Source: Mycobacterium sp. 155 (GTDB taxonomy: Bacteria; Actinomycetota; Actinomycetes; Mycobacteriales; Mycobacteriaceae). From it: a stretch of DNA of 64,000 nt. Below the pieces are notes generated by a model, which saw only the letters and a list, made by a program, of their open reading frames with translations, ran no database searches and was not told where the DNA came from. Each line of letters opens with the position of its first letter. Positions within the stretch are counted from its first letter, which is position 1. The position numbers and the translations under genes are program-made. This document shows positions 10,829 to 26,034 of the stretch, piece after piece. The stretch lies in NCBI RefSeq assembly GCF_000373905.1, contig NZ_KB892705.1, forward strand, positions 1,939,909 to 2,003,908. The letters are read 5' to 3'.

Positions 10829-11674
10829 ATGTGCGCGACCTGCGGCTGCGGTGACGATGGCCACGCCGGCCCGGTGATCACCCTCCCCGGCCAGGACCAC
10901 CCCCACGACCCCCATCAGCACGAAGAACACCACGGACACGACCACCACCACCACCACGACCGGCATGCGGAAACCACCTCGACGGAGACCGTCACCCTCG
11001 AACAGAAGGTGCTTGCCAAAAACGACCTCATCGCCGATGAGAATCGCCGGTGGCTGCGGCGGCGCGGCATCCTGGCCCTCAACATGACGAGTTCTCCGGG
11101 CGCGGGCAAAACGACACTGCTCGAGCGCACAATCCGCGAATTCGGGTCCCACCGGCCCATGGCGGTGATCGAAGGAGACCAGGAGACGCTGCTCGATGCC
11201 GACCGGATCAGTGCCGCGGGTGCCCGCTCGGTTCAGATCAACACCGGAGCGGGCTGTCATCTGGATGCGGCCATGGTTCACAGTGCCCTCGACGCACTCG
11301 ACCCCGATCCCGATTCGGTGCTGTTCATCGAGAACGTCGGAAACCTGGTCTGTCCGGCCTTGTTCGACCTAGGTGAAGGCAGCAAGATCGTCGTCGTCTC
11401 GGTGACCGAGGGGGCTGACAAACCGCTGAAATATCCGCACATGTTCGCGGCCGCCGACCTGGTCGTCATCAACAAGATCGACTTACTCCCCTACGTCGAC
11501 TTCGATATGCAAACCTGTTGCAAGCGTGCACGATCGGTCAATCCCGGGGTGGCCATCCTGCCGGTTTCGGCGACGCGGGGGGACGGACTCGAGCCGTGGT
11601 ATGCCTGGATCGACGCGCGGGCAAACGTCACGTTGCCAGCAACGGCCGTTGACAATACAAACCTGCGAGAGTAA
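10829..11674 (+). CDS. hypB: Hydrogenase nickel incorporation GTPase HypB
   Basis: A 281-residue GTPase. The N-terminus carries the high-affinity nickel motif CATCGC (C2, C5, C7) and a histidine-rich stretch (about 24-46) that can store nickel. Further on are the P-loop SSPGAGKTT (88-96), the metal-site motif GAGCHLDAAM and the guanine motif NKIDLLPY. It works with HypA in nickel insertion. Confidence 0.97.
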   Translation: MCATCGCGDDGHAGPVITLPGQDHPHDPHQHEEHHGHDHHHHHDRHAETTSTETVTLEQKVLAKNDLIADENRRWLRRRGILALNMTSSPGAGKTTLLERTIREFGSHRPMAVIEGDQETLLDADRISAAGARSVQINTGAGCHLDAAMVHSALDALDPDPDSVLFIENVGNLVCPALFDLGEGSKIVVVSVTEGADKPLKYPHMFAAADLVVINKIDLLPYVDFDMQTCCKRARSVNPGVAILPVSATRGDGLEPWYAWIDARANVTLPATAVDNTNLRE

Positions 11675-12910: not shown

Positions 12911-14707
12911 ATGACAACCATCATCCCCGAGCCGTCACACGTGAAGCGCGAACCGGGTCAATTGGTGGAGATGGCATGGGATCCGATCACGCGCATCGTC
13001 GGCAGCCTCGGCATCTACACCAAGATCGACTTCGAGAACCGTGAAGTCGTCGAATGTCACAGCACCTCGTCGATCTTCCGCGGTTACTCGATCTTCATGA
13101 AGGGCAAGGATCCTCGCGACGCACACTTCATCACCAGTCGTATCTGCGGTATCTGCGGCGACAACCACGCCACCTGCTCGTGCTACTGCCAGAACATGGC
13201 CTACGGGGTCAAACCGCCGCATCTCGGCGAGTGGCTGGTGAACCTCGGTGAAGCCGCGGAATATATGTTTGACCACAACATTTTCCAGGAGAATCTGGTC
13301 GGGGTGGACTACTGCGAGAAGATGGTCTCCGAAACCAATCCCGGCGTCCTGGCCAAGGCCGAGAACACCGCCGCACCGCACGCAGAGGCGCACGGACACC
13401 GCACCATCGCCGACATCATGCGTGCGCTCAATCCGTTCACCGGCGAGTTCTACCGAGAAGCCCTGCAGGTCAGCAGGTGGACGCGAGAGATGTTCTGCCT
13501 CATGGAGGGTCGCCACGTGCACCCGTCGACGCTGTACCCCGGCGGCATCGGCACGACCGCCACAGTGCAGCTGATGACCGACTACATGACCCGGCTGATG
13601 CGTTACGTCGAGTTCATGAAAAAGGTCGTGCCGATGCACGACGACCTGTTCGACTTCTTCTATGAAGCCCTGCCCGGCTACGACCAGGTGGGCCTGCGCC
13701 GCACTCTGCTGGGGTGCTGGGGTTCCTTCCAGGATCCCGAGGTCTGCAACTTCGCATACAAGGACATGGAACGTTGGGGCAACGCCATGTTCGTCACGCC
13801 CGGTGTGGTGGTCGACGGGAAACTCGTCACCCATTCACTGGTGGACATCAACCTCGGCATCCGGATCCTGTTGGGTCACAGCTACTACGAGGACTGGACC
13901 GATCAGGAGATGTTCGTCAAGACCGATCCGCTGGGCAACCCGGTCGACCGGCGTCATCCCTGGAACCAGCACACCAACCCCAGGCCGCAGAAGCGCGACT
14001 TCGACGAGAACTACAGCTGGGTGATGTCGCCGCGGTGGTACGACGGCAAGGACTACCTGGCGCTGGACACCGGCGGTGGACCCCTGGCCAGACTGTGGGC
14101 GACCGCGCTGGCCGGGCTGGTCGACATCGACTACGTCAAGGCCACCGGCAACAGTGTGAAGATCAACCTGCCGAAGACCGCGTTGAAAGGCCCGGTCGAG
14201 CTCGAGTGGAAGATTCCGGACAAGGGCAGCAACACCATCGAACGCAACCGCGCCCGCACCTACTTCCAGGCCTACGCCGCGGCATGCGCGCTGCATTTCG
14301 CCGAAAAGGCACTCGGCGAGATCCGGGCCGGCCGCACCAAGACGTGGGAACACTTCGAGGTTCCCGACGAGGCCATCGGCTGCGGCTTCACCGAAGCGGT
14401 ACGAGGCGTGCTGAGCCATCACATGGTCATCCGGGACGGCAAGATCGCCAACTATCATCCCTACCCCCCGACGCCGTGGAACGCCAACCCGCGGGACAGC
14501 TACGGCACCCCCGGGCCGTACGAGGATGCGGTGCAGGGACAGCCCATCTTCGAGGAGAACGACCGCGAACACTTCAAGGGCATAGATGTCATGCGCACCG
14601 TACGTAGTTTCGACCCGTGTCTGCCCTGCGGGGTGCACATGTACCTGGGCGACGGAAAGTCATTGGAGCTCATGCATTCTCCTACCCAATCCGCAACCGG
14701 GGAATGA
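12911..14707 (+). CDS. hhyL: [NiFe] hydrogenase large subunit, group 1h type
   Basis: A 598-residue catalytic subunit holding the NiFe(CN)2CO centre. The L1 motif is RICGICGDNH (C79, C82) and the L2 motif DPCLPCGVH (C570, C573, H576). A 22-residue tail follows H576; in this family cleavage after that His closes the active site, and a protease gene is present downstream. The ATG follows a purine-rich AAAGAGAAA. The 93-bp gap after the small subunit shows no other gene. Confidence 0.97.
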   Translation: MTTIIPEPSHVKREPGQLVEMAWDPITRIVGSLGIYTKIDFENREVVECHSTSSIFRGYSIFMKGKDPRDAHFITSRICGICGDNHATCSCYCQNMAYGVKPPHLGEWLVNLGEAAEYMFDHNIFQENLVGVDYCEKMVSETNPGVLAKAENTAAPHAEAHGHRTIADIMRALNPFTGEFYREALQVSRWTREMFCLMEGRHVHPSTLYPGGIGTTATVQLMTDYMTRLMRYVEFMKKVVPMHDDLFDFFYEALPGYDQVGLRRTLLGCWGSFQDPEVCNFAYKDMERWGNAMFVTPGVVVDGKLVTHSLVDINLGIRILLGHSYYEDWTDQEMFVKTDPLGNPVDRRHPWNQHTNPRPQKRDFDENYSWVMSPRWYDGKDYLALDTGGGPLARLWATALAGLVDIDYVKATGNSVKINLPKTALKGPVELEWKIPDKGSNTIERNRARTYFQAYAAACALHFAEKALGEIRAGRTKTWEHFEVPDEAIGCGFTEAVRGVLSHHMVIRDGKIANYHPYPPTPWNANPRDSYGTPGPYEDAVQGQPIFEENDREHFKGIDVMRTVRSFDPCLPCGVHMYLGDGKSLELMHSPTQSATGE

Positions 14708-14710
14708 CAT

Positions 14711-15607
14711 ATGCCGCCCACTGCGACGCCAGTCCCGGACAATCCCGACGATGCAGCACGCTGGCGTACGGCAGGGGAACGCATCCAGACACTGCTCGAT
14801 GCCAGCGCCGCGAACGGCGTTGCCGCGCTGGAGCGTGCCGAGCAATTGGTTCGCGAGGTAACCGATCTCTACGGAGCCGGTCTGCAGCGGTTGCTGCACA
14901 TCGCCACGGCTGCGGATCCGCACCTGGCAGAGGTGATCGCCGCTGACGATCTGGTGGCGAGCCTGTTGCTGGTGCACGGGTTACATCCGCATCCCGTGCA
15001 GCGCCGCATCGCCGACGCGCTCGATTCGGTGCGCCCGTATCTCGGATCTCACGGCGGCGACGTCGATCTGCTCGAAGTCGACGGCGAAGTGGTCCGACTG
15101 CGCTTCGCGGGGAGCTGCAAGAGCTGTCCGTCCTCGGCGGCCACCCTCGAGCTGGCGATCGAAGATGCGATCAAGGCCGCCGCCCCGGAGATCTCGTCGA
15201 TCGAGGTGGTGCCCGAAGAAGGTGCTCAACAGCTCATATCTGCGCAGTCACTGATGGCGCGAGTGCACACCAACGGGCATGCCGGTTGGCAGCCCGTACC
15301 CGAGCTCGATGAGTTGACTCCGGGCGAAGTGGGCGGCTTCGCCGTCGCAGACACCCGCGTGTTGGTGTGCCGGATCGGTGCGGAGTTCTTCGCCTACCGA
15401 GATCGCTGTCCTGACTGCAACCGGCCGATGGCCGGAGCGACGCTCACCGACGCTGTGCTGCATTGCCCGCAGTGTGGGGGTGGCTTCGACGTCGTGCATG
15501 CCGGGTTGGCAACCACAGGCACAGCCGATCACCACTTGGAGCCGATTCCGGTGCTGCGCCGCTCCGGTGTGCTTTCGATGGCCATCGCCCAGGAGATCGC
15601 ATCGTGA
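14711..15607 (+). CDS. hhyE: NifU-domain / Rieske-like iron-sulfur protein (HhyE-type)
   Basis: A 298-residue soluble protein. A helical N-terminus (about 1-90) leads to a NifU-like domain (about 95-170) with C136-x2-C139 in CKSCPSS, which binds or transfers an Fe-S cluster. The C-terminal third has a Rieske fold pattern, but its ligands are C233-x2-C236 and C252-x2-C255, with cysteine where true Rieske proteins have histidine. It starts 3 bp after hhyL. A similar protein in M. smegmatis has been linked to hydrogenase activity or electron transfer to the quinone pool; I use that name from memory. Confidence 0.85.
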   Translation: MPPTATPVPDNPDDAARWRTAGERIQTLLDASAANGVAALERAEQLVREVTDLYGAGLQRLLHIATAADPHLAEVIAADDLVASLLLVHGLHPHPVQRRIADALDSVRPYLGSHGGDVDLLEVDGEVVRLRFAGSCKSCPSSAATLELAIEDAIKAAAPEISSIEVVPEEGAQQLISAQSLMARVHTNGHAGWQPVPELDELTPGEVGGFAVADTRVLVCRIGAEFFAYRDRCPDCNRPMAGATLTDAVLHCPQCGGGFDVVHAGLATTGTADHHLEPIPVLRRSGVLSMAIAQEIAS

Positions 15608-16233
15608 CCGCCTTTGACGTGCTGGCCCGGATCCGCGCCGGTCGCGGCTCACCGGCACAGCCTGGCGCGCGGTGCGAAATGTGTTCGGAGACCATCGCCG
15701 ATGAGCATCAGCATGTGGTGAATGTCGATGGCCGCCAATTGATGTGTGTCTGTCGCGGCTGCTATCTGCTGTTCACCGACACCCGGGCCGAACTGCGCTA
15801 CCGTGCTGTCCCCGACCGCTATCTGGTGTTTCCCGATTGTGCCGTGAGCCGGCGGAACTGGGAAGCCCTGCAGATTCCCGTCGGTCTCGCTTTCTTCTTC
15901 CGTAACTCGACGTTGGGGCGCGTGGTCGCGTTCTACCCGGGCCCGGCGGGCGCCACCGAATCCGAACTCGACCTGGACTCCTGGAACACCGTGAGGGTCG
16001 CCGAGCCGAGAGTCGATCTGGTCGACGACGACACCGAGGCGGTGTTGATCCGCATTCCGGACGATGAGACATGCCCTCCGACATGTTATTTGGTACCCAT
16101 CGATGCATGCTATGAGTTCGTCGGCCGATTGCGGATGCTGTGGCGCGGATTCGACGGCGGTCAGGACGTCCGCCACTACATCGATGAGTTCTTCATCGCG
16201 CTCGACGCTCGCAGCCGGGCGGTGGCGCGATGA
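15604..16233 (+). CDS. DUF5947-type hydrogenase-cluster protein
   Basis: A 209-residue protein whose GTG overlaps the previous stop by 4 bases; the longer upstream frame overlaps that gene and is not used. The N-terminus has a metal-site pattern C24-x2-C27, H35/H37 and C48-x-C50-x2-C53, resembling a zinc ribbon or small Fe-S site. Other blocks are DRYLVFPDC, LAFFFRNS and VRHYIDEFF. The family name is from memory. Its constant position next to the hydrogenase suggests assembly or an electron-transfer partner role; not proven. Confidence 0.8.
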   Translation: MTAFDVLARIRAGRGSPAQPGARCEMCSETIADEHQHVVNVDGRQLMCVCRGCYLLFTDTRAELRYRAVPDRYLVFPDCAVSRRNWEALQIPVGLAFFFRNSTLGRVVAFYPGPAGATESELDLDSWNTVRVAEPRVDLVDDDTEAVLIRIPDDETCPPTCYLVPIDACYEFVGRLRMLWRGFDGGQDVRHYIDEFFIALDARSRAVAR

Positions 16234-16886
16234 CCGGCCCGGCGGTGCCGGCGACCGAAGTCACCTTCGCCGTACTCGACATCTCCCCCGAACCGTTTGC
16301 GGTGACTCCGATTCTGACTGCACGAATCGGTGTGGCGGCGATCGGTGACGATCCCGTCCATGCCATCGCGTTGCGCGCTCAGATTCGCATCGAACCGGCA
16401 CGGCGCGGCTACACCGACGACGAGGCCGAGGGACTGCTCGACTTGTTCGGCCCACGCGAACGCTGGAGCACCACGCAGCGCACGTTCCTATGGCAACACA
16501 GCAACGCCGTAGTGCCGGGATTCACCGACACGACGCAGCTCGGGATGGCACTGGAATGCACCTACGACTTCGAGGTGGCGGCATCAAAGTACCTGCACGC
16601 GTTGCGCGGCGGCACGGTGCCGCTCCAGTTCTTGTTCAGCGGCACCGTATTCAGCCAGGGTTCACGCGGTTTCGCCGTTACCCAGGTGCCGTGGAACCGT
16701 GAGGACCGATTCGACATGCCGGTCACTGTGTGGCGCGAGCTGATCGCGCAGCACTTCCCGCACACCGGATGGCTGCGTCTGGACCGCGACACTCTCGATG
16801 CCCTGGCCGCCTTCAAGTCTCGACGTGGACTGCTCTCTTTCGACGAGGCGATCACCGCCCTGATGTCCACGCGGGAAACATCATGA
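16230..16886 (+). CDS. DUF6084-type hydrogenase-cluster protein
   Basis: A 218-residue protein, start overlapping the previous stop by 4 bases. The predicted fold is mostly beta (VTPILTARIGV, LRAQIRIEP, FLFSGTVF) with the motif LLDLFGPRERWSTTQRTFLWQH. There is no cysteine cluster and no membrane segment. It could be a structural adaptor. Function unknown; the family name is from memory. Confidence 0.8.
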   Translation: MTGPAVPATEVTFAVLDISPEPFAVTPILTARIGVAAIGDDPVHAIALRAQIRIEPARRGYTDDEAEGLLDLFGPRERWSTTQRTFLWQHSNAVVPGFTDTTQLGMALECTYDFEVAASKYLHALRGGTVPLQFLFSGTVFSQGSRGFAVTQVPWNREDRFDMPVTVWRELIAQHFPHTGWLRLDRDTLDALAAFKSRRGLLSFDEAITALMSTRETS

Positions 16887-18205
16887 GCAACACCTGGGAA
16901 CATGTCAGGGCCGTGGCCGACGCCGTGCTCTACGAGGGCTATCTGCTGTACCCATATCGGGCGGATTCACAGAAGAACCAGTCGCGCTGGCAGTTCGGTG
17001 TGCTGGGCCCTACCGACGCCGCACGCACCGGGATCGGTGAGGACAACCGCCTGTCGGCGCAGCTGCTCATCCGTCCGCAGGGCCGGCCGAGGATCTCGAT
17101 CGTCGTTCGCTTCCTTCAACTTCAGCGTCGCACCGCCGAACGTCGCCGTGCTCAACGCTTCGAAGCCGTCGATGAACTGGTCACCACCGGACACTCCTGG
17201 CTGAGCTGGGACGAGGCGGTCGAGCGGGAGATCAGCTTCGGTCCGTTCGATACCGTCGACCTCGGCTCCGGGTACACGTGTGGCATCTCAGTGCCACCGG
17301 GCACCGACGTCGAACCGGTCGACGGCGGCAGGCTGGTCCGTTCGCGGCGGGAACTGTGCGGCGAACTGAATCTTGCCCTCGAATCCGACGACGAGCTATT
17401 GCGATTGACGCTCACGGTGGGCAACACAGCCCCACCCGCGTCCGGCAAGGACGACGCCATTGCCGTGTCTTTGATCGGCACACACGCCGTGGTCGAGGTC
17501 GCCGACGGAGAATTCGTCTCTCTGCTGGACCCGCCCGCAGACGCGGGCGCCGCGGCTTCCCGGTGCCATCACCACCGTTGCTTCCCGGTTCTCGCGGGAC
17601 CGCCCGACGAGAACCGGCTCATGCTGGTGTCACCGATCATCCTCTACGACCATCCTGAGATCGCCGAACAGAGCACGGGCGCACTGTACGACTCGACCGA
17701 AATCGACGAGATCCTCACACTGCGGATCATGACGATGACCGACGACGAGAAGGCACATGCCCGCGCCACCGATCCACGCGCGGCAGCCATCATCGACCGG
17801 TGCGATTCGATGTCGCCCGAAGCAATGCTGAATCTTCATGGCGTGTTGCGTAATCCGCATGCATCCGGAGCACCGTCGGGACTGATCCCGGAAATCCCCG
17901 ACGGAATCCAGTGGTGGGATCCGCTGGCCGACAACGCGGTCGACCCTGCCGTCGACGCTGTCCTGGTCAACGGGGTTCCGGTGAGTCGCGGCAGTCGTGT
18001 CCGGCTGCACCCTTCACGCCGGGCCGACGCCCAGGATCTGTTCTTCGTCAACAGGATCGCGCGGGTGGCCTCGGTCCACGAGGACGTCGACGGTGAGCAT
18101 CATCTCGGCGTCGTGCTCGATGACGATCCGGCGGCAGACCTCCACGAGTGGTACGGCCGCTACCTGTACTTCTCACCCGATGAAGTCGAACCGCTGGTGC
18201 AATGA
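16883..18205 (+). CDS. Uncharacterised hydrogenase-cluster protein with CHHHRC motif
   Basis: A 440-residue protein starting at an ATG that overlaps the previous stop by 4 bases. I do not recognise its fold. Conserved-looking features are WQFGVLGP near 36, a possible metal site C228-H-H-H-R-C233, LMLVSPIILYDHPEIAEQS around 245-265, and a C-terminal small beta-barrel-like part with VSRGSRVRLHPSRRADAQD and YGRYLYFSPDEVEPL. It is translationally locked into the hydrogenase operon, so a role in the enzyme's assembly or attachment is likely. Confidence 0.75.
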   Translation: MSNTWEHVRAVADAVLYEGYLLYPYRADSQKNQSRWQFGVLGPTDAARTGIGEDNRLSAQLLIRPQGRPRISIVVRFLQLQRRTAERRRAQRFEAVDELVTTGHSWLSWDEAVEREISFGPFDTVDLGSGYTCGISVPPGTDVEPVDGGRLVRSRRELCGELNLALESDDELLRLTLTVGNTAPPASGKDDAIAVSLIGTHAVVEVADGEFVSLLDPPADAGAAASRCHHHRCFPVLAGPPDENRLMLVSPIILYDHPEIAEQSTGALYDSTEIDEILTLRIMTMTDDEKAHARATDPRAAAIIDRCDSMSPEAMLNLHGVLRNPHASGAPSGLIPEIPDGIQWWDPLADNAVDPAVDAVLVNGVPVSRGSRVRLHPSRRADAQDLFFVNRIARVASVHEDVDGEHHLGVVLDDDPAADLHEWYGRYLYFSPDEVEPLVQ

Positions 18206-18829: not shown

Positions 18830-19084
18830 ATGTGTCTGGGAATCCCGGGGCAGGTAGTGCGAATGCTGGAAGGGTACGGTGGCCAACTCGCTCTGGTAGA
18901 CGTCGCGGGCGAGCATCGTAAAGTCAACGTCGGCATGCTGGCCGACGAGACGTTCGGCCCCGGCGACTGGGTGATCATCCACATGGGCTTCGCCGTCGAA
19001 AAGACCGATGCGGCGGGCGCCGACGCGGCCATGCAGGGACTGGAACTCATGGGCCGTGGTCGCGACTCGGGGGCGCCACCATGA
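18830..19084 (+). CDS. hypC: Hydrogenase assembly chaperone HypC (copy 1)
   Basis: An 84-residue chaperone beginning MCLGIPGQV; Cys2 is the residue that binds iron with HypD and the immature large subunit. GDWVIIHMGFA is the typical OB-fold end. It lies 3 bp after the protease and overlaps hypF by 4 bases. A second hypC occurs 5.5 kb downstream. Confidence 0.95.
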   Translation: MCLGIPGQVVRMLEGYGGQLALVDVAGEHRKVNVGMLADETFGPGDWVIIHMGFAVEKTDAAGADAAMQGLELMGRGRDSGAPP

Positions 19085-21360
19085 GCATGCGGCAACGGCT
19101 TGAAATAAGTGTCCACGGCGTGGTTCAGGGTGTGGGCTTCCGACCGTTCGTGTACACGACCGCCGCAGCGCTTGGCCTGACCGGGTGTGTACGCAACGAC
19201 AGCTCGGGTGCGGTCATCGAGATCGAGGGCGAGCCCGCCGCGATCGGCGCATTTCTGAATCGTCTGCGCGACAGTCCCCCACCGCTGGCGGTCGTCGAGT
19301 CGATCGAGACCGCGAGCCTGCCGGTCGCCGGCGGAACGGGGTTCGTCATCGCCGACACCTCGCGGTCCGACGGTGGCCGCACGCTGGTGTCGCCGGATGT
19401 CGCGATGTGCACCCAATGTGCCGCCGAGCAGCGGGATCCAGCCGACCGCCGATATCGGCACGCCTTCGTCAACTGCACCAACTGCGGTCCCCGCTTCACC
19501 ATCATCGCGTCACTGCCCTATGACCGTGTAGCGACGACGATGGCCGAATTCGACATGTGCGCCGACTGCGCTCACGAGTACTCCGACCCTGCCGACCGAC
19601 GCTTTCACGCCCAGCCGGTGTGCTGCCCCAACTGCGGCCCGACCCTGACGTTTCACGCCGGGGGCAGCACGGCCACAGGCGAATCCGGATTGCAGGCTGC
19701 CCGTCGCCTGCTGCGCAACGGTGGCATCCTCGGCGTCAAGGGAATCGGTGGGTACCACCTGGCCTGCGACACAGGCGATCACCATGCCGTCACTGAACTG
19801 CGGCACCGTAAGCGCCGTGGCGACAAACCTTTTGCGGTGATGGTTCCCGACCTTGCCAGCGCACAAGAGATCGTCGACGTCGACGACGCCGCCGCGCGGC
19901 TGCTGTGCGGGCCGGCCCGCCCGATCGTGCTCCTGCCCCGGCGCCCAAGTGCCGTGGTCGCGGAATCCGTCGCGCCGCGCAATCCCGATCTCGGTGTGAT
20001 GCTCGCCTACAGCCCGCTGCACACCCTGCTCTTCGGCCTACCCGGCGACCAACCGGGGCCCCACGTGCTGGTCATGACATCGGCCAACCTCAGTGGCGAA
20101 CCGATCTGCTTCACCGATGACGATGCACTGGGGCGGCTTTCGTCGCTGGCCGACGGTTGGCTGACCCACGACAGGGCGATCCTGGTGCCCTGTGACGACT
20201 CGGTGATCCGCCTCGTCGACGGCATCGAACTGCCGATCCGGCGCTCGCGCGGTTACGCTCCACTGCCCGTTGCCCTGCCCGTATCGGTACCGGCCACCCT
20301 CGCGGTGGGGGCGGATCTGAAAAACACCCTCGCCGTCGCCGAACACCGCTACGCCTGGCTGAGCGCACACATCGGCGACATGGACGATCTGGCCACGCTC
20401 TCCGCTTTCGGGAACGCCGTCGAGCACCTCGAGGCGTTGACCAACGTCAAACCCGAAATCCTTGTCGCCGACGCTCATCCCGCATATCGTTCGGCCGCCT
20501 GGGCTCACCGCAACGCCGATGGCCGACCGGTGCGGACCGTGCAACACCACCACGCCCACATCGCAGCCGTGCTGGCCGAAAACGGCCTGGACGGTCCGGT
20601 GCTCGGATTCGCCTTCGACGGAACCGGTTACGGCCCTGACGGTGCGGTGTGGGGCGGGGAACTGCTCGAAGCGGACTACAAGAGTTTCCAGCGGCTCGCA
20701 CAGCTGCGGTACGTGCCGATGCCCGGCGGCGACATCAGCGTACGACGGCCCTATCGAATGGCCCTGGCACATCTGCGGGCAGCCGGAATCGAGTGGGACG
20801 CTGAGCTTCCGCCGGTGCGAGCCTGCCCGGCCGCTGAGCTGAGGGTGCTCGAGCACCAGTTGCGCACGCACACCGGATGCACACCGACCTCGAGCATGGG
20901 CCGGCTCTTCGACGCCGTCTCGGCGGTGATCGGTGTGCGGCAAGTGGTGGACTACGAAGCGCAGGCCGCCATCGAGCTGGAAGGACTGTCGCGAAACGTC
21001 GACCCCGGCACAACCCGGTACGCATTCGCCGTCGACACCGGTCGACATCCTATGGTGTTCGACCCCGGGCCGGTGTTCGAGGCGATGCTCGATGACATGC
21101 GCTGCGGCGTACCGGTCGGGGTGATCGGCGCGCGGTTCCATCACGCGGTGGCCGGACTGATCGTCGAGCTGGCCGTCGCTTGCGCGATCCCAGGCCAACC
21201 CGTTGCCCTGTCCGGGGGCGTGTTCCAGAATGCGCTGCTGCTGCATCTGACGCTGATGAGTCTGCGCGCCAAGGGGTTTCAGGTCATCACCCACCGCCAC
21301 GTGCCGCCGAACGACGGTGGCATCGCGTTGGGTCAGCTCTTGGTCGGAAATGCGGGTTGA
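19081..21360 (+). CDS. hypF: Carbamoyltransferase HypF
   Basis: A 759-residue enzyme that converts carbamoyl phosphate to the thiocarboxamide on HypE, the source of the cyanide ligands. Domains in order: acylphosphatase (GVVQGVGFRPF near 13-23), two zinc fingers (CTQC...CTNC and CADC...CPNC), a YrdC-like domain (KRRGDKPFAVM region) and a Kae1-like carbamoyltransferase domain with HHHAHIAAVLAENG and GFAFDGTGYGPDG. Full length for the family. Confidence 0.97.
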   Translation: MSMRQRLEISVHGVVQGVGFRPFVYTTAAALGLTGCVRNDSSGAVIEIEGEPAAIGAFLNRLRDSPPPLAVVESIETASLPVAGGTGFVIADTSRSDGGRTLVSPDVAMCTQCAAEQRDPADRRYRHAFVNCTNCGPRFTIIASLPYDRVATTMAEFDMCADCAHEYSDPADRRFHAQPVCCPNCGPTLTFHAGGSTATGESGLQAARRLLRNGGILGVKGIGGYHLACDTGDHHAVTELRHRKRRGDKPFAVMVPDLASAQEIVDVDDAAARLLCGPARPIVLLPRRPSAVVAESVAPRNPDLGVMLAYSPLHTLLFGLPGDQPGPHVLVMTSANLSGEPICFTDDDALGRLSSLADGWLTHDRAILVPCDDSVIRLVDGIELPIRRSRGYAPLPVALPVSVPATLAVGADLKNTLAVAEHRYAWLSAHIGDMDDLATLSAFGNAVEHLEALTNVKPEILVADAHPAYRSAAWAHRNADGRPVRTVQHHHAHIAAVLAENGLDGPVLGFAFDGTGYGPDGAVWGGELLEADYKSFQRLAQLRYVPMPGGDISVRRPYRMALAHLRAAGIEWDAELPPVRACPAAELRVLEHQLRTHTGCTPTSSMGRLFDAVSAVIGVRQVVDYEAQAAIELEGLSRNVDPGTTRYAFAVDTGRHPMVFDPGPVFEAMLDDMRCGVPVGVIGARFHHAVAGLIVELAVACAIPGQPVALSGGVFQNALLLHLTLMSLRAKGFQVITHRHVPPNDGGIALGQLLVGNAG

Positions 21361-21363
21361 GCG

Positions 21364-22113
21364 ATGAGCATCGTCGGATTGCATACCCTGCCTGCTGGAT
21401 CACGGCTGTTCGCCCGTTACGCGTATCCGCCCAACGAGCTGGGGTACTGCGGGCCGGGTGAGTCCGGCGTGCTGTTGCACGGGGACGACGCGGCCGCGCT
21501 GGCGCGCCATGCCAGGGCATTCGACGGCGCCTGGCCATACCTGAGCACAATGGCGCGCGCCACGGGAACCGACCCGCTGGACGCCGACGTGGTCGGCGGA
21601 TACTGGGTCGGCGGCCCGCAGCTGCACTGCGTCGACCCCGCCGACCTGCTCGCTACTCTGCGTGCAGCGTTTTCAGGGCAGGCCACCGGGCTACTGGACG
21701 ACGTCGGATCCTCGTCGACCGTCCTGGCACACCACAGCTTTCACGTCTTCGTCGTCTACCCGTGGGTGCGCTTCCTCGATCGGGAGCCCACCACGGCACT
21801 GCGGGTGTTGCAGAACTGCCGGATACGTTGGGGCACCGTCACAGCCGTCGACGGTGAGTATGCCGTGATCGACACCTGTCCCCTCGTCCTGGACGACGGC
21901 GTGTTAGCACTGGGGTCCGCGCGTCCAGAGCGGGTGCGCTGGAGCCGAGACGGCGCGTCGTTCATCACCACACCCGAACCCGGCACGCTCGTCTCTGCTC
22001 ATTGGGACTGGGTGTGCGACACCCTGACCGGCACGGGGCGCGCGGCGCTGACCGAGGCCACCGCCACAACCCTGGACATGGTAAACGCCGTCCGAAAGGT
22101 AGGTCACTCATGA
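21364..22113 (+). CDS. DUF6390-type hydrogenase-cluster protein
   Basis: A 249-residue soluble protein of unknown function. Conserved-looking blocks are LFARYAYPPNELGYCGP near the N-terminus, YWVGGPQL, HHSFHVFVVYPWVRFLD and LQNCRIRWG. It begins 3 bp after hypF and overlaps the next gene by 4 bases. The family name is from memory. Its place among hyp genes suggests a maturation role. Confidence 0.78.
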   Translation: MSIVGLHTLPAGSRLFARYAYPPNELGYCGPGESGVLLHGDDAAALARHARAFDGAWPYLSTMARATGTDPLDADVVGGYWVGGPQLHCVDPADLLATLRAAFSGQATGLLDDVGSSSTVLAHHSFHVFVVYPWVRFLDREPTTALRVLQNCRIRWGTVTAVDGEYAVIDTCPLVLDDGVLALGSARPERVRWSRDGASFITTPEPGTLVSAHWDWVCDTLTGTGRAALTEATATTLDMVNAVRKVGHS

Positions 22114-22841
22114 CCGTCACTGCACAACCGTTCGTCGACAGCCAGCTCTCTGCCGACCTCGCGGCCGCCGCCCTGGATGTCGCTCGCAGATTTCACGACG
22201 GCGCCACCCTGTGGGTCATTGCGCCGCAATGGGAACCACACGCGCACCACGTGGCCGTCGAATTCGTCCACCCGGTCATCATGGGCAAACGTGCACTGCC
22301 GTCGGTCGCCCTCGTCGATCCGGACCCGGTCGCGGCGGCCAGGGTGGCCAGCCAGCCCGGCGACCTGCTCTTGGCCGTCGCATCCGCCAACGAACCCGCG
22401 GTCATCGATGCCATGCGACGGGCACCCGCGTGGGGCGTCACCACCGTGTGGATCGGGTCGGGCCCTCGGCCGTCGGCCGGCGCCGCCCATCACATCCTGT
22501 GGATCGAGTCCGATGACCCCATGGTGCCCGCGACCGGCCGTTTCGTCTTGATGTATCACTTGCTGTGGGAGCTCACCCACGTGTGCTTCGAACACCCGGG
22601 ACTGCTCAAAAGTCCCGACGGCGAGTGCACCGACGAAGTGTGCGTGACATGCAGTGACGACGGCCAAATCGCGGAAGTGATTCTGGCACCGCAAGACTCG
22701 AACAGTCCGGCGCTCGTCCGTACCTGCGATGGCGAACAGTGGGTCGATGTCGCACTGCTCGGCGAGGTGGCACCCGACGACCTGATCCTCGTGCACGCCG
22801 GCACCGGGATCACCACGCTGGGAACGGAGCAGGCCTCATGA
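22110..22841 (+). CDS. SIS-like domain fused to a HypC-like domain
   Basis: A 243-residue protein. Residues about 10-170 resemble a sugar-isomerase (SIS) fold related to GmhA (VEFVHPVIMGKRALPSVALVD, GDLLLAVASANEPAVIDAM, TGRFVLMYHLLWELTHVCFEHPGLL). Residues about 175-243 resemble HypC (CTDEVCVTCSDDG...DLILVHAGTGI). The start overlaps the previous stop by 4 bases; the longer upstream frame is not needed. The fusion ties a phosphosugar-binding fold to an Fe(CN)2CO-scaffold fold, suggesting a part in cofactor assembly; the chemistry is unknown. Confidence 0.78.
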   Translation: MTVTAQPFVDSQLSADLAAAALDVARRFHDGATLWVIAPQWEPHAHHVAVEFVHPVIMGKRALPSVALVDPDPVAAARVASQPGDLLLAVASANEPAVIDAMRRAPAWGVTTVWIGSGPRPSAGAAHHILWIESDDPMVPATGRFVLMYHLLWELTHVCFEHPGLLKSPDGECTDEVCVTCSDDGQIAEVILAPQDSNSPALVRTCDGEQWVDVALLGEVAPDDLILVHAGTGITTLGTEQAS

Positions 22842-23512
22842 CCACGAACGAATCCGAAAGCACCGGGTTCCTCTACCCGTTCATCGAGTCCGAAGAGACC
22901 GATGCCAGGGCGTTGCTCGAGGATCTCGCGTCCTCGGCACGCGCCAAGGCCGCCGAAAGTGCTCGGCTGCAACAGGAATCCCTACAGGAATACGATCCCG
23001 GACTGGTGCAGGCCGGCCAGGCCATGGCCGACAGATTCGCCCGCGGCGGCAGGCTGTACACGCTGGGCAACGGGGGCAGCTCCACCGATGCCGCCACCCT
23101 GGCCACGTTGTTCAGCCGCCCGGCGCGCGGCCGGCCGGTGTCGGCGTGGTCGCTGGCCGCCGACGAAGCCGTCGTCACCGCCCTGGGCAACGACGTCGGA
23201 TTCGAACTGATCTTCAAACGCCAGATCATCGCCCATGCCCGCGACCGAGATGTCGCTATCGCACTGTCGACATCGGGCAACTCCGAGGACCTCATGACAG
23301 CGATCACCGAGGCCAAGCAACGCGGACTGCTCACCATCGGATTCGCCGGCCACGACGGCGGTCGGATGAGTACCGCCGAGGATCTCGACTTCTGTTTCAC
23401 CGTCCACAGTCAGAGTATTCACCGCATACAGGAAAGCCACGCCATGCTCGGCTACCGGCTCTGGTCGGTCGCCCAGGAACAGCTGGCCCGGATCCGGGAG
23501 CGCGCATCATGA
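22838..23512 (+). CDS. SIS-domain protein, GmhA-like
   Basis: A 224-residue phosphosugar isomerase-fold protein close to sedoheptulose-7-phosphate isomerase. Visible are GGRLYTLGNGGSSTDAATLA (phosphate loop), IALSTSGNSEDLMTAI and QESHAMLGYRLW (the helix that carries the catalytic Glu/His in GmhA). There are no heptose genes nearby. It overlaps both neighbours by 4 bases, so it belongs to the hydrogenase unit. The true substrate is unknown. Confidence 0.85.
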   Translation: MTTNESESTGFLYPFIESEETDARALLEDLASSARAKAAESARLQQESLQEYDPGLVQAGQAMADRFARGGRLYTLGNGGSSTDAATLATLFSRPARGRPVSAWSLAADEAVVTALGNDVGFELIFKRQIIAHARDRDVAIALSTSGNSEDLMTAITEAKQRGLLTIGFAGHDGGRMSTAEDLDFCFTVHSQSIHRIQESHAMLGYRLWSVAQEQLARIRERAS

Positions 23513-24600
23513 CCACTACGGCGGCAACGCAACGCGAGGACCGGGTGCTGGAACGGATCGACAAGTTCCGTCAGAGGCGGCCACGGCTCCTCGACGACGT
23601 GGTCACCCTGGCCCACGGCGCGGGCGGGAAAGCTTCTGCGGCACTGGTCGACGCGGTGTTCGTGGAGGCATTCCGCAACTCCGAACTCGAGCAGCTCGGT
23701 GACGCAGCGGTGCTGACAACTCCGTCCGGTGATCGCCTCGCATTTTCTACCGACTCGTATGTGGTTGCACCGCACCGCTTCCCAGGCGGCTCCATCGGAC
23801 ACGTGGCGGTGCACGGGACCATAAACGACCTCGCTGTCTCCGGAGCCCGGCCGTACTGGATATCGGCAGGATTCGTGATCGAGGAGGGCTTCCCGATCAG
23901 CGAGTTGCGCGAGATCGTCGCCGACATGGCCGAAGCCGCCGCTCACGCGGGAGTACAGATCGTCACAGGCGACACCAAGGTGGTCGGAAAGGGTGCGGCC
24001 GACGGCATGTACATCTGCACCGCAGGTGTCGGTGTGATTCCGCACGGCCGGCGGCTGTCGCGCGAATGCGTACAACCCGGCGACAAGGTGCTGTTGTCCG
24101 GCACGATCGGCGAACACGGGATGGCAGTCATGCTCGCCCGCGGTGACCTCGCCATCGACGCCGACATCGCCTCGGACACCGCACCCGTCCACGAACTGGT
24201 CGAAGCATTGTTGGAGGCGGCGCCGTCGACACGATGGATGCGGGACGCGACCCGCGGCGGTGTCGGCACCGTGTGCAACGAACTCGTCAAGGACCGTCCG
24301 TTCGCGGTGGTTCTCGACGAGGACCGCCTCCCGATCGAACCGCAGGTGCTCGGCGCCTGCGATCTGCTCGGCATCGACCCGCTGTACGTAGCCAACGAGG
24401 GCAAGTTCCTCGCGGTCGTCGCCCCCGACGAAGCGGACGCGGCCGTAGCCGCCCTCCGCGCGCATCCTCAGGGCGTGCGCGCCGCCGTGGTGGGTGAGAT
24501 CGTCCCCGAACCACACGGGATCGTTGCGTTACGAACATCATTCGGTGGCAGCCGGATTGTCGACATGCTCGTCGGCGACCCGCTGCCACGCATCTGCTGA
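23509..24600 (+). CDS. hypE: Hydrogenase maturation protein HypE
   Basis: A 363-residue PurM/AIR-synthase-fold protein. Its C-terminal sequence PRIC puts C363 at the very end, the residue that carries the carbamoyl and then cyano group supplied by HypF. The ATP region has TLAHGAGGKAS and MRDATRGGVGTV. The true start is ATG at 23509, overlapping the SIS gene by 4 bases; the longer frame is antisense-like and rejected. Confidence 0.97.
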   Translation: MTTTAATQREDRVLERIDKFRQRRPRLLDDVVTLAHGAGGKASAALVDAVFVEAFRNSELEQLGDAAVLTTPSGDRLAFSTDSYVVAPHRFPGGSIGHVAVHGTINDLAVSGARPYWISAGFVIEEGFPISELREIVADMAEAAAHAGVQIVTGDTKVVGKGAADGMYICTAGVGVIPHGRRLSRECVQPGDKVLLSGTIGEHGMAVMLARGDLAIDADIASDTAPVHELVEALLEAAPSTRWMRDATRGGVGTVCNELVKDRPFAVVLDEDRLPIEPQVLGACDLLGIDPLYVANEGKFLAVVAPDEADAAVAALRAHPQGVRAAVVGEIVPEPHGIVALRTSFGGSRIVDMLVGDPLPRIC

Positions 24601-24626: not shown

Positions 24627-24899
24627 ATGTGTCTTGGAATTCCCGGTCAGGTGGTCGATTTCGTCGACACCGAAGCTCATCTGGCCAAGGTCGACGTCAA
24701 CGGGGTACGCCGCATCATCAGTGTCCGACTGCTCGCCGACGACAACCTGCAGGTCGGCGACTGGGTGCTGGTCCATGTCGGGTTCGCCATGGCCAAGATC
24801 GACGAACGCGAAGCGGCCCTGACGCTGGATCAGGTGCAGAAGATGGGCGAGAACTATCAACAGGAGATCGACGCGTTCAACGACTCCGAAATCGCTTGA
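24627..24899 (+). CDS. hypC: Hydrogenase assembly chaperone HypC (copy 2)
   Basis: A 90-residue HypC starting MCLGIPGQV with GDWVLVHVGFAM, plus a C-terminal helix. It differs clearly from copy 1 after the first ten residues. A ribosome site (ATAGGAGC) precedes it. Lying directly before hypD, it is the likely HypD partner, with copy 1 perhaps serving the large subunit. Confidence 0.95.
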   Translation: MCLGIPGQVVDFVDTEAHLAKVDVNGVRRIISVRLLADDNLQVGDWVLVHVGFAMAKIDEREAALTLDQVQKMGENYQQEIDAFNDSEIA

Positions 24900-24909
24900 G
24901 AGGCTTGAC

Positions 24910-26034
24910 ATGAAGTTCGTCGACGAATTCCGCGATCCAGCTGCCGCACGGGCCCTGGTCAAATCGATCACCGAACTGGCCGGCGGCGATGAGTTCAAAT
25001 TCATGGAGGTGTGCGGCGGCCACACCCACACGATCTACCGGCACGGCATCGAACACCTGCTCCCCGAAACCATCGAGTTGGTGCACGGCCCCGGCTGCCC
25101 GGTCTGCGTGATCCCGATGGGTCGGGTGGACGACGCGATGTGGCTCGCCGAGCAGCCCGGCATCATCTTCACCACCTTCGGCGACATGATGCGCGTACCC
25201 GGTTCACGCGGAAACCTGATCGAAGCCAAGGCCCGCGGAGCCGACGTGCGATTCGTCTACTCACCGCTGGACGCGCTCAAGATCGCCCGTGACAATCCCG
25301 ATCGGCACGTCGTGTTCTTCGCGGTCGGCTTCGAAACCACGGCGCCGTCCACGGCCGTCACGTTGGTCCGGGCCCGCACACTGGGCGTGCGCAACTTCAG
25401 CGTCTTCTGCAACCACGTCACGATCGTGCCGCCCATCAAGGCCATCCTCGAATCGCCCGACCTGCGGCTGTCCGGGTTCCTCGGGCCCGGACATGTCTCC
25501 ACCGTGGTCGGGTTGCGGCCGTACCGATTCGTCCCCGCCGTGTACGGCAAGCCCATCGTGGTCGCCGGGTTCGAACCACTCGACATCCTGGCCTCGGTGC
25601 ACATGCTGTTGCAGCAGATCCGCGACGGCCGTTGCGAAGTGGAGAACCAGTACACGCGCGTGGTGCGACCCGAAGGCAACACCCAGGCGCTGAAGTTGAT
25701 GGCCGAGACATTCGAATTGCGACCCCATTTCGAATGGCGCGGACTCGGATTCATCTCCCAGAGCGCGCTGAAGGTTCACCGCGACTACGCCGAGTACGAC
25801 GCCGAGCTGGTATTCGACATGCCGGGGGTACGGGTGGCCGACCCCAAGGCCTGCCAATGCGGTGAGGTCCTCAAGGGTGTCATCAAGCCTTGGGAATGCA
25901 AGGTGTTCGGAACGGCCTGCACACCTGAGACACCGATCGGAACGTGCATGGTGTCGCCGGAAGGTGCGTGCGCCGCGTACTACAACTTCGGCCGACTACA
26001 CCGCGAGACCGCACAGTTGCTGATTCAGCGCTGA
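24910..26034 (+). CDS. hypD: Hydrogenase formation protein HypD
   Basis: A 374-residue Fe-S scaffold on which the Fe(CN)2CO unit is built with HypC. Conserved motifs are MEVCGGHTHTIYRHG, HGPGCPVCV, GFETTAPST, FSVFCNHV, GFLGPGHVS and the C-terminal four-Cys cluster region CQCGEVLKGVIKPWECKVFGTAC. It is the last gene of the hydrogenase locus and ends next to a convergent gene. Confidence 0.97.
   Translation: MKFVDEFRDPAAARALVKSITELAGGDEFKFMEVCGGHTHTIYRHGIEHLLPETIELVHGPGCPVCVIPMGRVDDAMWLAEQPGIIFTTFGDMMRVPGSRGNLIEAKARGADVRFVYSPLDALKIARDNPDRHVVFFAVGFETTAPSTAVTLVRARTLGVRNFSVFCNHVTIVPPIKAILESPDLRLSGFLGPGHVSTVVGLRPYRFVPAVYGKPIVVAGFEPLDILASVHMLLQQIRDGRCEVENQYTRVVRPEGNTQALKLMAETFELRPHFEWRGLGFISQSALKVHRDYAEYDAELVFDMPGVRVADPKACQCGEVLKGVIKPWECKVFGTACTPETPIGTCMVSPEGACAAYYNFGRLHRETAQLLIQR

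Follow-up and report, generated by a model that had tools for sequence, protein, structure and literature searches.

A split pair of GmhA-like SIS domains in hydrogenase maturation gene sets, possibly serving an unrecognised step such as CO-ligand supply

The SIS genes of Mycobacterium sp. 155

The 64-kb stretch of the Mycobacterium sp. 155 genome analysed here (the window) carries a set of [NiFe]-hydrogenase maturation (hyp) genes that includes two genes for proteins with a GmhA-like sugar isomerase (SIS) domain. One of them encodes a fusion of such a domain, SISa, with a HypC-like domain, termed HypC', and the other encodes a second SIS domain, SISb. The fusion gene, the SISb gene and hypE are chained via ATGA overlaps.

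22110..22841, + strand: fusion gene SISa-HypC', a GmhA-like SIS domain joined to a HypC-like domain
about 22110-22619, + strand: SISa domain, GmhA-like SIS, with the ligands His47, Glu51 and His150
about 22620-22841, + strand: HypC' domain, HypC-like, with a CVTC motif
22838..23512, + strand: SISb gene, GmhA-like, with the phosphate loops Ser81 and Ser144-Ser146, plus Gln198; His/Glu metal ligands absent
23509..24600, + strand: hypE, with an ATGA overlap with SISb

The original prediction for this DNA had described a degenerate SIS domain fused to a HypC-like domain and followed by an intact GmhA-like protein, both coupled to hypE. The fusion and the coupling to hypE are indeed present. The second protein, however, is not intact, since SISb lacks the His and Glu ligands and the two halves are complementary.

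SISa and SISb are complementary halves

The metal of GmhA is coordinated by a His, a Glu and a His from one subunit, together with a Gln that is lent by a neighbouring subunit. Comparison of these residues revealed that SISa and SISb are complementary in 98 of 100 loci, with one row each of L083, L088 and L101 counted as SISa. SISa retains the metal ligands His-Glu-His, while SISb retains the phosphate loops, which are kept in nearly all SISb rows, and the GmhA-type Gln. Neither SIS domain was complete in any of the 100 loci. On the contrary, five single-SIS relatives from Pseudomonadota retain the full residue set. The residues H65, E69, H72, H161 and H168 (Thermus numbering) are invariant in SISa across 16 rows. 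Because the domains are complementary, because neither is complete in the 100 loci and because single-SIS relatives keep everything, the pair looks, judged by its residues, like one composite active site, and we consider it likely that SISa and SISb together form a composite metal site.

Both proteins belong to the SIS alpha/beta fold; the rows of the fold search with the fusion cover residues 1-164, and the HypC' part lies outside them. All four zinc ligands of GmhA were not found in one protein, but are divided between SISa and SISb. Compared with the curated GmhA family TIGR00441, SISb reaches 108.3 bits and stays below the cut-off of 209.45. On the divided metal residues and this score, an ordinary gmhA is rejected.

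The SIS pair is part of Hyp gene sets in many phyla

A genome collection of 84,980 species was scanned with patterns derived from aligned SISa and single-SIS domains. The scan yielded at least 594 stretches with at least 588 relatives, from which 80 tandem loci were fetched. Carriers were found in Acidobacteriota, Meiothermus, Thermomicrobia, Gemmatimonadota, Bacillota, Methylacidiphilum, Eremiobacterota, Pirellulales, Rhodothermales and Actinomycetota. Plasmid records, from which all evidence for Pseudomonadota comes, added Thermus, Sulfobacillus, Cupriavidus, Methylocystis, Afipia, Bradyrhizobium, Mesorhizobium, Sphingopyxis, Novosphingobium and M. intracellulare. On plasmid pHG1 of C. necator H16 the SIS gene next to hypD is a single one. 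Of the 80 tandem loci, 76 have one or more hyp genes in view; seven of the 80 are shorter than 6 kb, so that gene counts are lower bounds. The tie between the SIS pair and hyp genes, predicted from the window, is thus borne out by a pair that lies inside hyp gene sets of many phyla, and the SIS pair is very probably a hydrogenase maturation factor.

A gene for a glutaredoxin-like protein (annotated as 'Uxx-star' in Thermus) adjoins the SISa-SISb tandem at 47 of the 80 loci, often 5' of hypF (for example L009:15336-15596). This protein may act with the SIS module as a redox partner. On the M. intracellulare plasmid (L004; 437,571 bases), a huc-type hydrogenase cluster includes the SIS pair and has Calvin-cycle genes (RuBisCO, phosphoribulokinase) on its flanks.

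The SIS pair follows one HypD lineage

A tree of 120 HypD proteins places every one of the 74 SIS-linked members inside one branch of 83 members (Shimodaira-Hasegawa-like approximate likelihood ratio test, SH-aLRT, 94), and HypX-linked members lie elsewhere. The SIS label requires nine changes on this tree, compared with a mean of 36.8 after shuffling (quick method). The sample is skewed towards SIS (74 of 120), because 80 loci were fetched via SIS. The SIS pair follows one HypD lineage that is spread over many phyla.

SIS-linked clusters adjoin large subunits of the 1h or 2a type, and of the 1d type in Afipia (L010). Because all three occur as neighbours, the SIS pair is not bound to one hydrogenase type; the types were assigned with our own profiles built from few seeds, and low 1h scores (around 500 bits) may represent other types. 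The idea that SIS goes with a hydrogenase type was rejected, since SIS tracks the HypD lineage.

SIS pair and HypX do not share a cluster among 120 hypD genes

The window had been described as lacking hypX, and a search of the whole genome had been proposed as a check. This search found no hypX in the Mycobacterium sp. 155 genome, and a hypX elsewhere in it that would explain the CO ligand is therefore rejected. Neither SISa-HypC' nor SISb matched the formyltransferase and enoyl-CoA hydratase-like domains that define HypX.

In the neighbourhood of the 120 hypD genes we found SIS in 74 cases, HypX in 15 and neither in 31, and in none of them did SIS and hypX occur together within 15 kb (L049 is counted as HypX, its hypX lying on L044). 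Among the 80 tandem loci there were two weak HypX matches of 48 and 28 bits, compared with 673-905 for true HypX. HypX was not found in the genomes of the 49 named SIS carriers among these loci, while the control plasmid was positive. Of the two HypX-bearing genomes of Acidobacteriota, neither has the SIS pair and both hold GmhA-like single domains only; in one (L224) HypX adjoins hypC, hypD and hypE.

In Actinomycetota, HypX was found in 11 of 79 hypD-positive genomes and in a Kitasatospora record. In 10 of 11 genomes of code f5/g8 (Streptomyces-like by inference) HypX is present, with no SIS in the vicinity of hypD. In a tree of group 1h-type large subunits (40 in all: 27 linked to SIS, 10 to HypX and three to neither), HypX-type clusters lie among SIS-type clusters in at least two places. 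The absence of shared clusters and the alternation among 1h clusters fit a scenario in which one factor replaced the other.

The HypC' domain

According to PMC8692609, the Fe(CN)2CO group is borne by proteins of the HypC type. In the alignment rows that were readable, HypC' has the motif CxTC[GS]D where HypC begins with Met-Cys, and a VHxG-type motif is retained. In the fusion of the window HypC' is internal, with CVTC, and does not start with Met-Cys. It scores 25.8 bits against PF01455 (cut-off 28.5); in the genome scan, taken together with its neighbours, the score is 28.8. Mycobacteria have HypC' joined to SISa, and Thermus and Sulfobacillus encode it as a short protein of its own. In Thermus a single protein comprises both SIS domains, and the stand-alone HypC' of 75 amino acids adjoins hypC and hypD. 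The earlier label of a HypC-like domain is thereby corrected in two respects: the motif is CxTC instead of Met-Cys, and the domain stands alone in Thermus and Sulfobacillus. A universal link of HypC' with the SIS pair was rejected, as HypC' was detected in 17 of the 80 tandem loci, a lower bound in view of the seven short loci.

At two further loci (L077, L082) a CxTC-type HypC' adjoins hypD, with no SIS pair in view.

Other genes of the locus

The remaining genes of the hydrogenase region are as follows.

10829..11674, + strand: hypB
12911..14707, + strand: group 1h-type [NiFe]-hydrogenase large subunit, typed by comparison with annotated 1h clusters
18830..19084, + strand: second hypC, start MCLGIPG
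19081..21360, + strand: hypF
21364..22113, + strand: DUF6390 gene, with an ATGA overlap with the fusion gene
24627..24899, + strand: hypC, start MCLGIPG
24910..26034, + strand: hypD, member of the SIS-linked HypD lineage

Between hhyL and a protease gene (14711-18205) lie auxiliary genes whose positions resemble those of genes that are annotated as NifU, DUF5947 and DUF6084 in L006. The DUF6390 gene of the M. intracellulare plasmid is located 3' of hypD (L004:23827-24582). The Mycobacterium sp. 155 genome holds one hypD and three HypC-type domains. Outside the window, the same genome contains a second [NiFe]-hydrogenase-like large subunit (434-amino-acid frame, G000:C1:2321676-2322812), and no second hypD was found in it.

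Discussion

We propose that SISa-HypC' and SISb are a heteromeric maturation enzyme with a composite site that acts at the CO-ligand step, and assign this explanation as a whole a probability of about 0.4. The enzyme would have arisen by duplication from a GmhA-like isomerase, and one SISa/SISb pair would build one composite site for zinc or iron. This site may bind a phosphorylated hydroxy-carbonyl compound and carry out enediolate chemistry as in GmhA. The module very probably belongs to the Hyp machinery for Fe(CN)2CO assembly, and in aerobes of the SIS-linked Hyp lineage it might make a CO precursor or present it to the HypC/HypD-bound iron; where HypC' is present, it would be a putative docking part. 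Because HypX alternates with the SIS pair, action at the CO-ligand step, which HypX serves elsewhere, appears plausible, if somewhat short of an even chance. It is doubtful, though conceivable, that the pair goes as far as a split metal-dependent phosphosugar enzyme that releases CO by enediolate cleavage or decarbonylation for the iron on HypC' or HypCD, as a source independent of HypX. A passage of PMC12134894 describes the CO source in the absence of HypX as unresolved, and also reports that external CO at about 10 nM outcompetes the endogenous precursor. External CO might explain lineages with neither factor.

Several observations weigh against our proposal. The lack of HypX in the 49 named carriers is weak by itself, because HypX is rare in Acidobacteriota anyway (two of 247 genomes, with at most five candidates scored per genome). 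In 79 hypD-positive Actinomycetota genomes, picked from 189 for family spread before the SIS and HypX searches, one has both modules, 24 have SIS only, 10 HypX only and 44 neither (Fisher p = 0.16, not significant), and strict exclusion at genome level is therefore rejected. The 25 SIS genomes were assigned by reading match positions, and in four of them (G013, G017, G083 and G089) SIS lies on a contig other than that of the listed hypD; G017 has hypD pieces on other contigs. The genome with both modules, G083, carries them on different contigs. Neither module accompanies the hyp genes and the 1h large subunit of two genomes of the window's genus (G038, G363) and of G172, and G290 likewise has hyp genes without SIS or HypX. 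Because these four genomes have hyp genes without both, maturation without either module seems possible. In G249 (L069:7083-7718), with a 2a-type hydrogenase, SISb is absent and the SISa motif of the fusion has decayed, while HypC' is kept; both halves were therefore lost together, and the pair is dispensable there. A huc-type cluster of Octadecabacter (L207) shows no SIS in 21 kb of one plasmid, and HypC' was detected only in the 17 of 80 tandem loci mentioned above. L066 and L068, which stem from the genomes with neither module, are among the nearest relatives of the window in the tree of 1h large subunits.

These two loci are part of a group of Actinomycetota hyp clusters without SIS and HypX (L066, L067, L068, L070), three of which adjoin a 1h-type large subunit.

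The original interpretation, SIS in place of HypX, therefore stands in part. It is supported by the lack of a shared cluster in the SIS-biased set of 120 hypD genes and by 1h clusters with one, the other or neither module; the four genomes with neither and the non-significant exclusion between genomes speak against it.

Other roles of the pair have to be weighed. It is unlikely, yet worth considering, that the composite site binds iron and passes it to HypC/HypD, with HypC' as a carrier and without any sugar chemistry. The conserved His, Glu and His of SISa with further His residues, the CxTC motif of HypC' and the Fe(CN)2CO cargo of HypC-type proteins (PMC8692609) would suit such metal handling, but sugar-phosphate loops, kept in nearly all SISb rows, are needless for iron carriage, and the alternation with HypX at the CO step would have to be ascribed to chance. 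About as improbable is a non-catalytic O2 shield or scaffold for nascent Fe(CN)2CO in aerobic assembly, like HupF/HupK or HoxL/HoxV. The named SIS carriers come mostly from aerobic lineages, and a HypC-family domain is fused in. HupF, moreover, is required at high O2 according to a passage of PMC12134894. A scaffold, however, would not require the metal ligands and phosphate loops that are kept, though divided, and HypC' was detected at few of the tandem loci. The pair might also bind a sugar phosphate and gate maturation by carbon status, which we regard as improbable, since the complete GmhA metal-ligand set is retained across the pair and sensors such as GKRP require no metal site. Ordinary GmhA heptose isomerases that lie near hyp genes by chance are very improbable despite the sequence likeness and the database names, given the score under the gmhA cut-off, the divided ligands and a hyp linkage across many phyla.

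SIS genes near hydrogenases have been recorded before. A 2025 survey lists a 'SIS domain' cluster 37 (68 genes) among the conserved neighbours of [NiFe]-hydrogenase large subunits (PMC12727194, Table 1); it thus already counts such genes near the large subunit, and this part of the survey mentions no function, split pair, HypC' or HypX. M. smegmatis MSMEG_2706, which neighbours a fusion gene, appears as gmhA among hyp genes in a microarray appendix (PMC5445863), and a 2015 paper points out that high-affinity H2 oxidisers do not all carry hypX (PMC4767420). A search of the open-licence literature found no description of the split pair, its maturation role, a HypC' partner or a relation to HypX. 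Many aerobic H2-oxidising bacteria hold, inside the Hyp gene set, a split SIS-like enzyme that may perform a step not yet recognised, for instance the supply of the CO ligand. Whatever its step, this is a widespread component of Hyp sets that several databases name heptose isomerase, and a two-gene candidate with testable residues in consumers of atmospheric H2 and in tractable hosts.

Comparison with known systems

Like HypX, a formyl-tetrahydrofolate decarbonylase, the SIS pair is an extra factor in the hyp sets of aerobic H2 oxidisers, and HypX occurs in 1h clusters that lack the pair. The two have no domain in common, HypX consisting of a formyltransferase and an enoyl-CoA hydratase-like domain. 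The C-terminal domain of the fusion resembles the HypC/HybG/HupF chaperones and shares the VHxG motif, but carries CxTC[GS]D instead of an N-terminal Met-Cys and occurs either joined to a SIS domain or encoded close to one. With GmhA the pair shares the SIS fold, the phosphate loops (SISb) and the metal ligands His-Glu-His (SISa) and Gln (SISb); it differs in consisting of two unlike, incomplete and hyp-linked halves, with SISb under the gmhA cut-off. Tandem-SIS proteins (the GlmS isomerase domain, AgaS, NagB-II and GKRP) likewise pack two SIS domains, and the predicted model of the tandem superposes across both. Unlike in these proteins, both halves of the pair are GmhA-like, and the metal ligands and phosphate loops are placed on separate halves.
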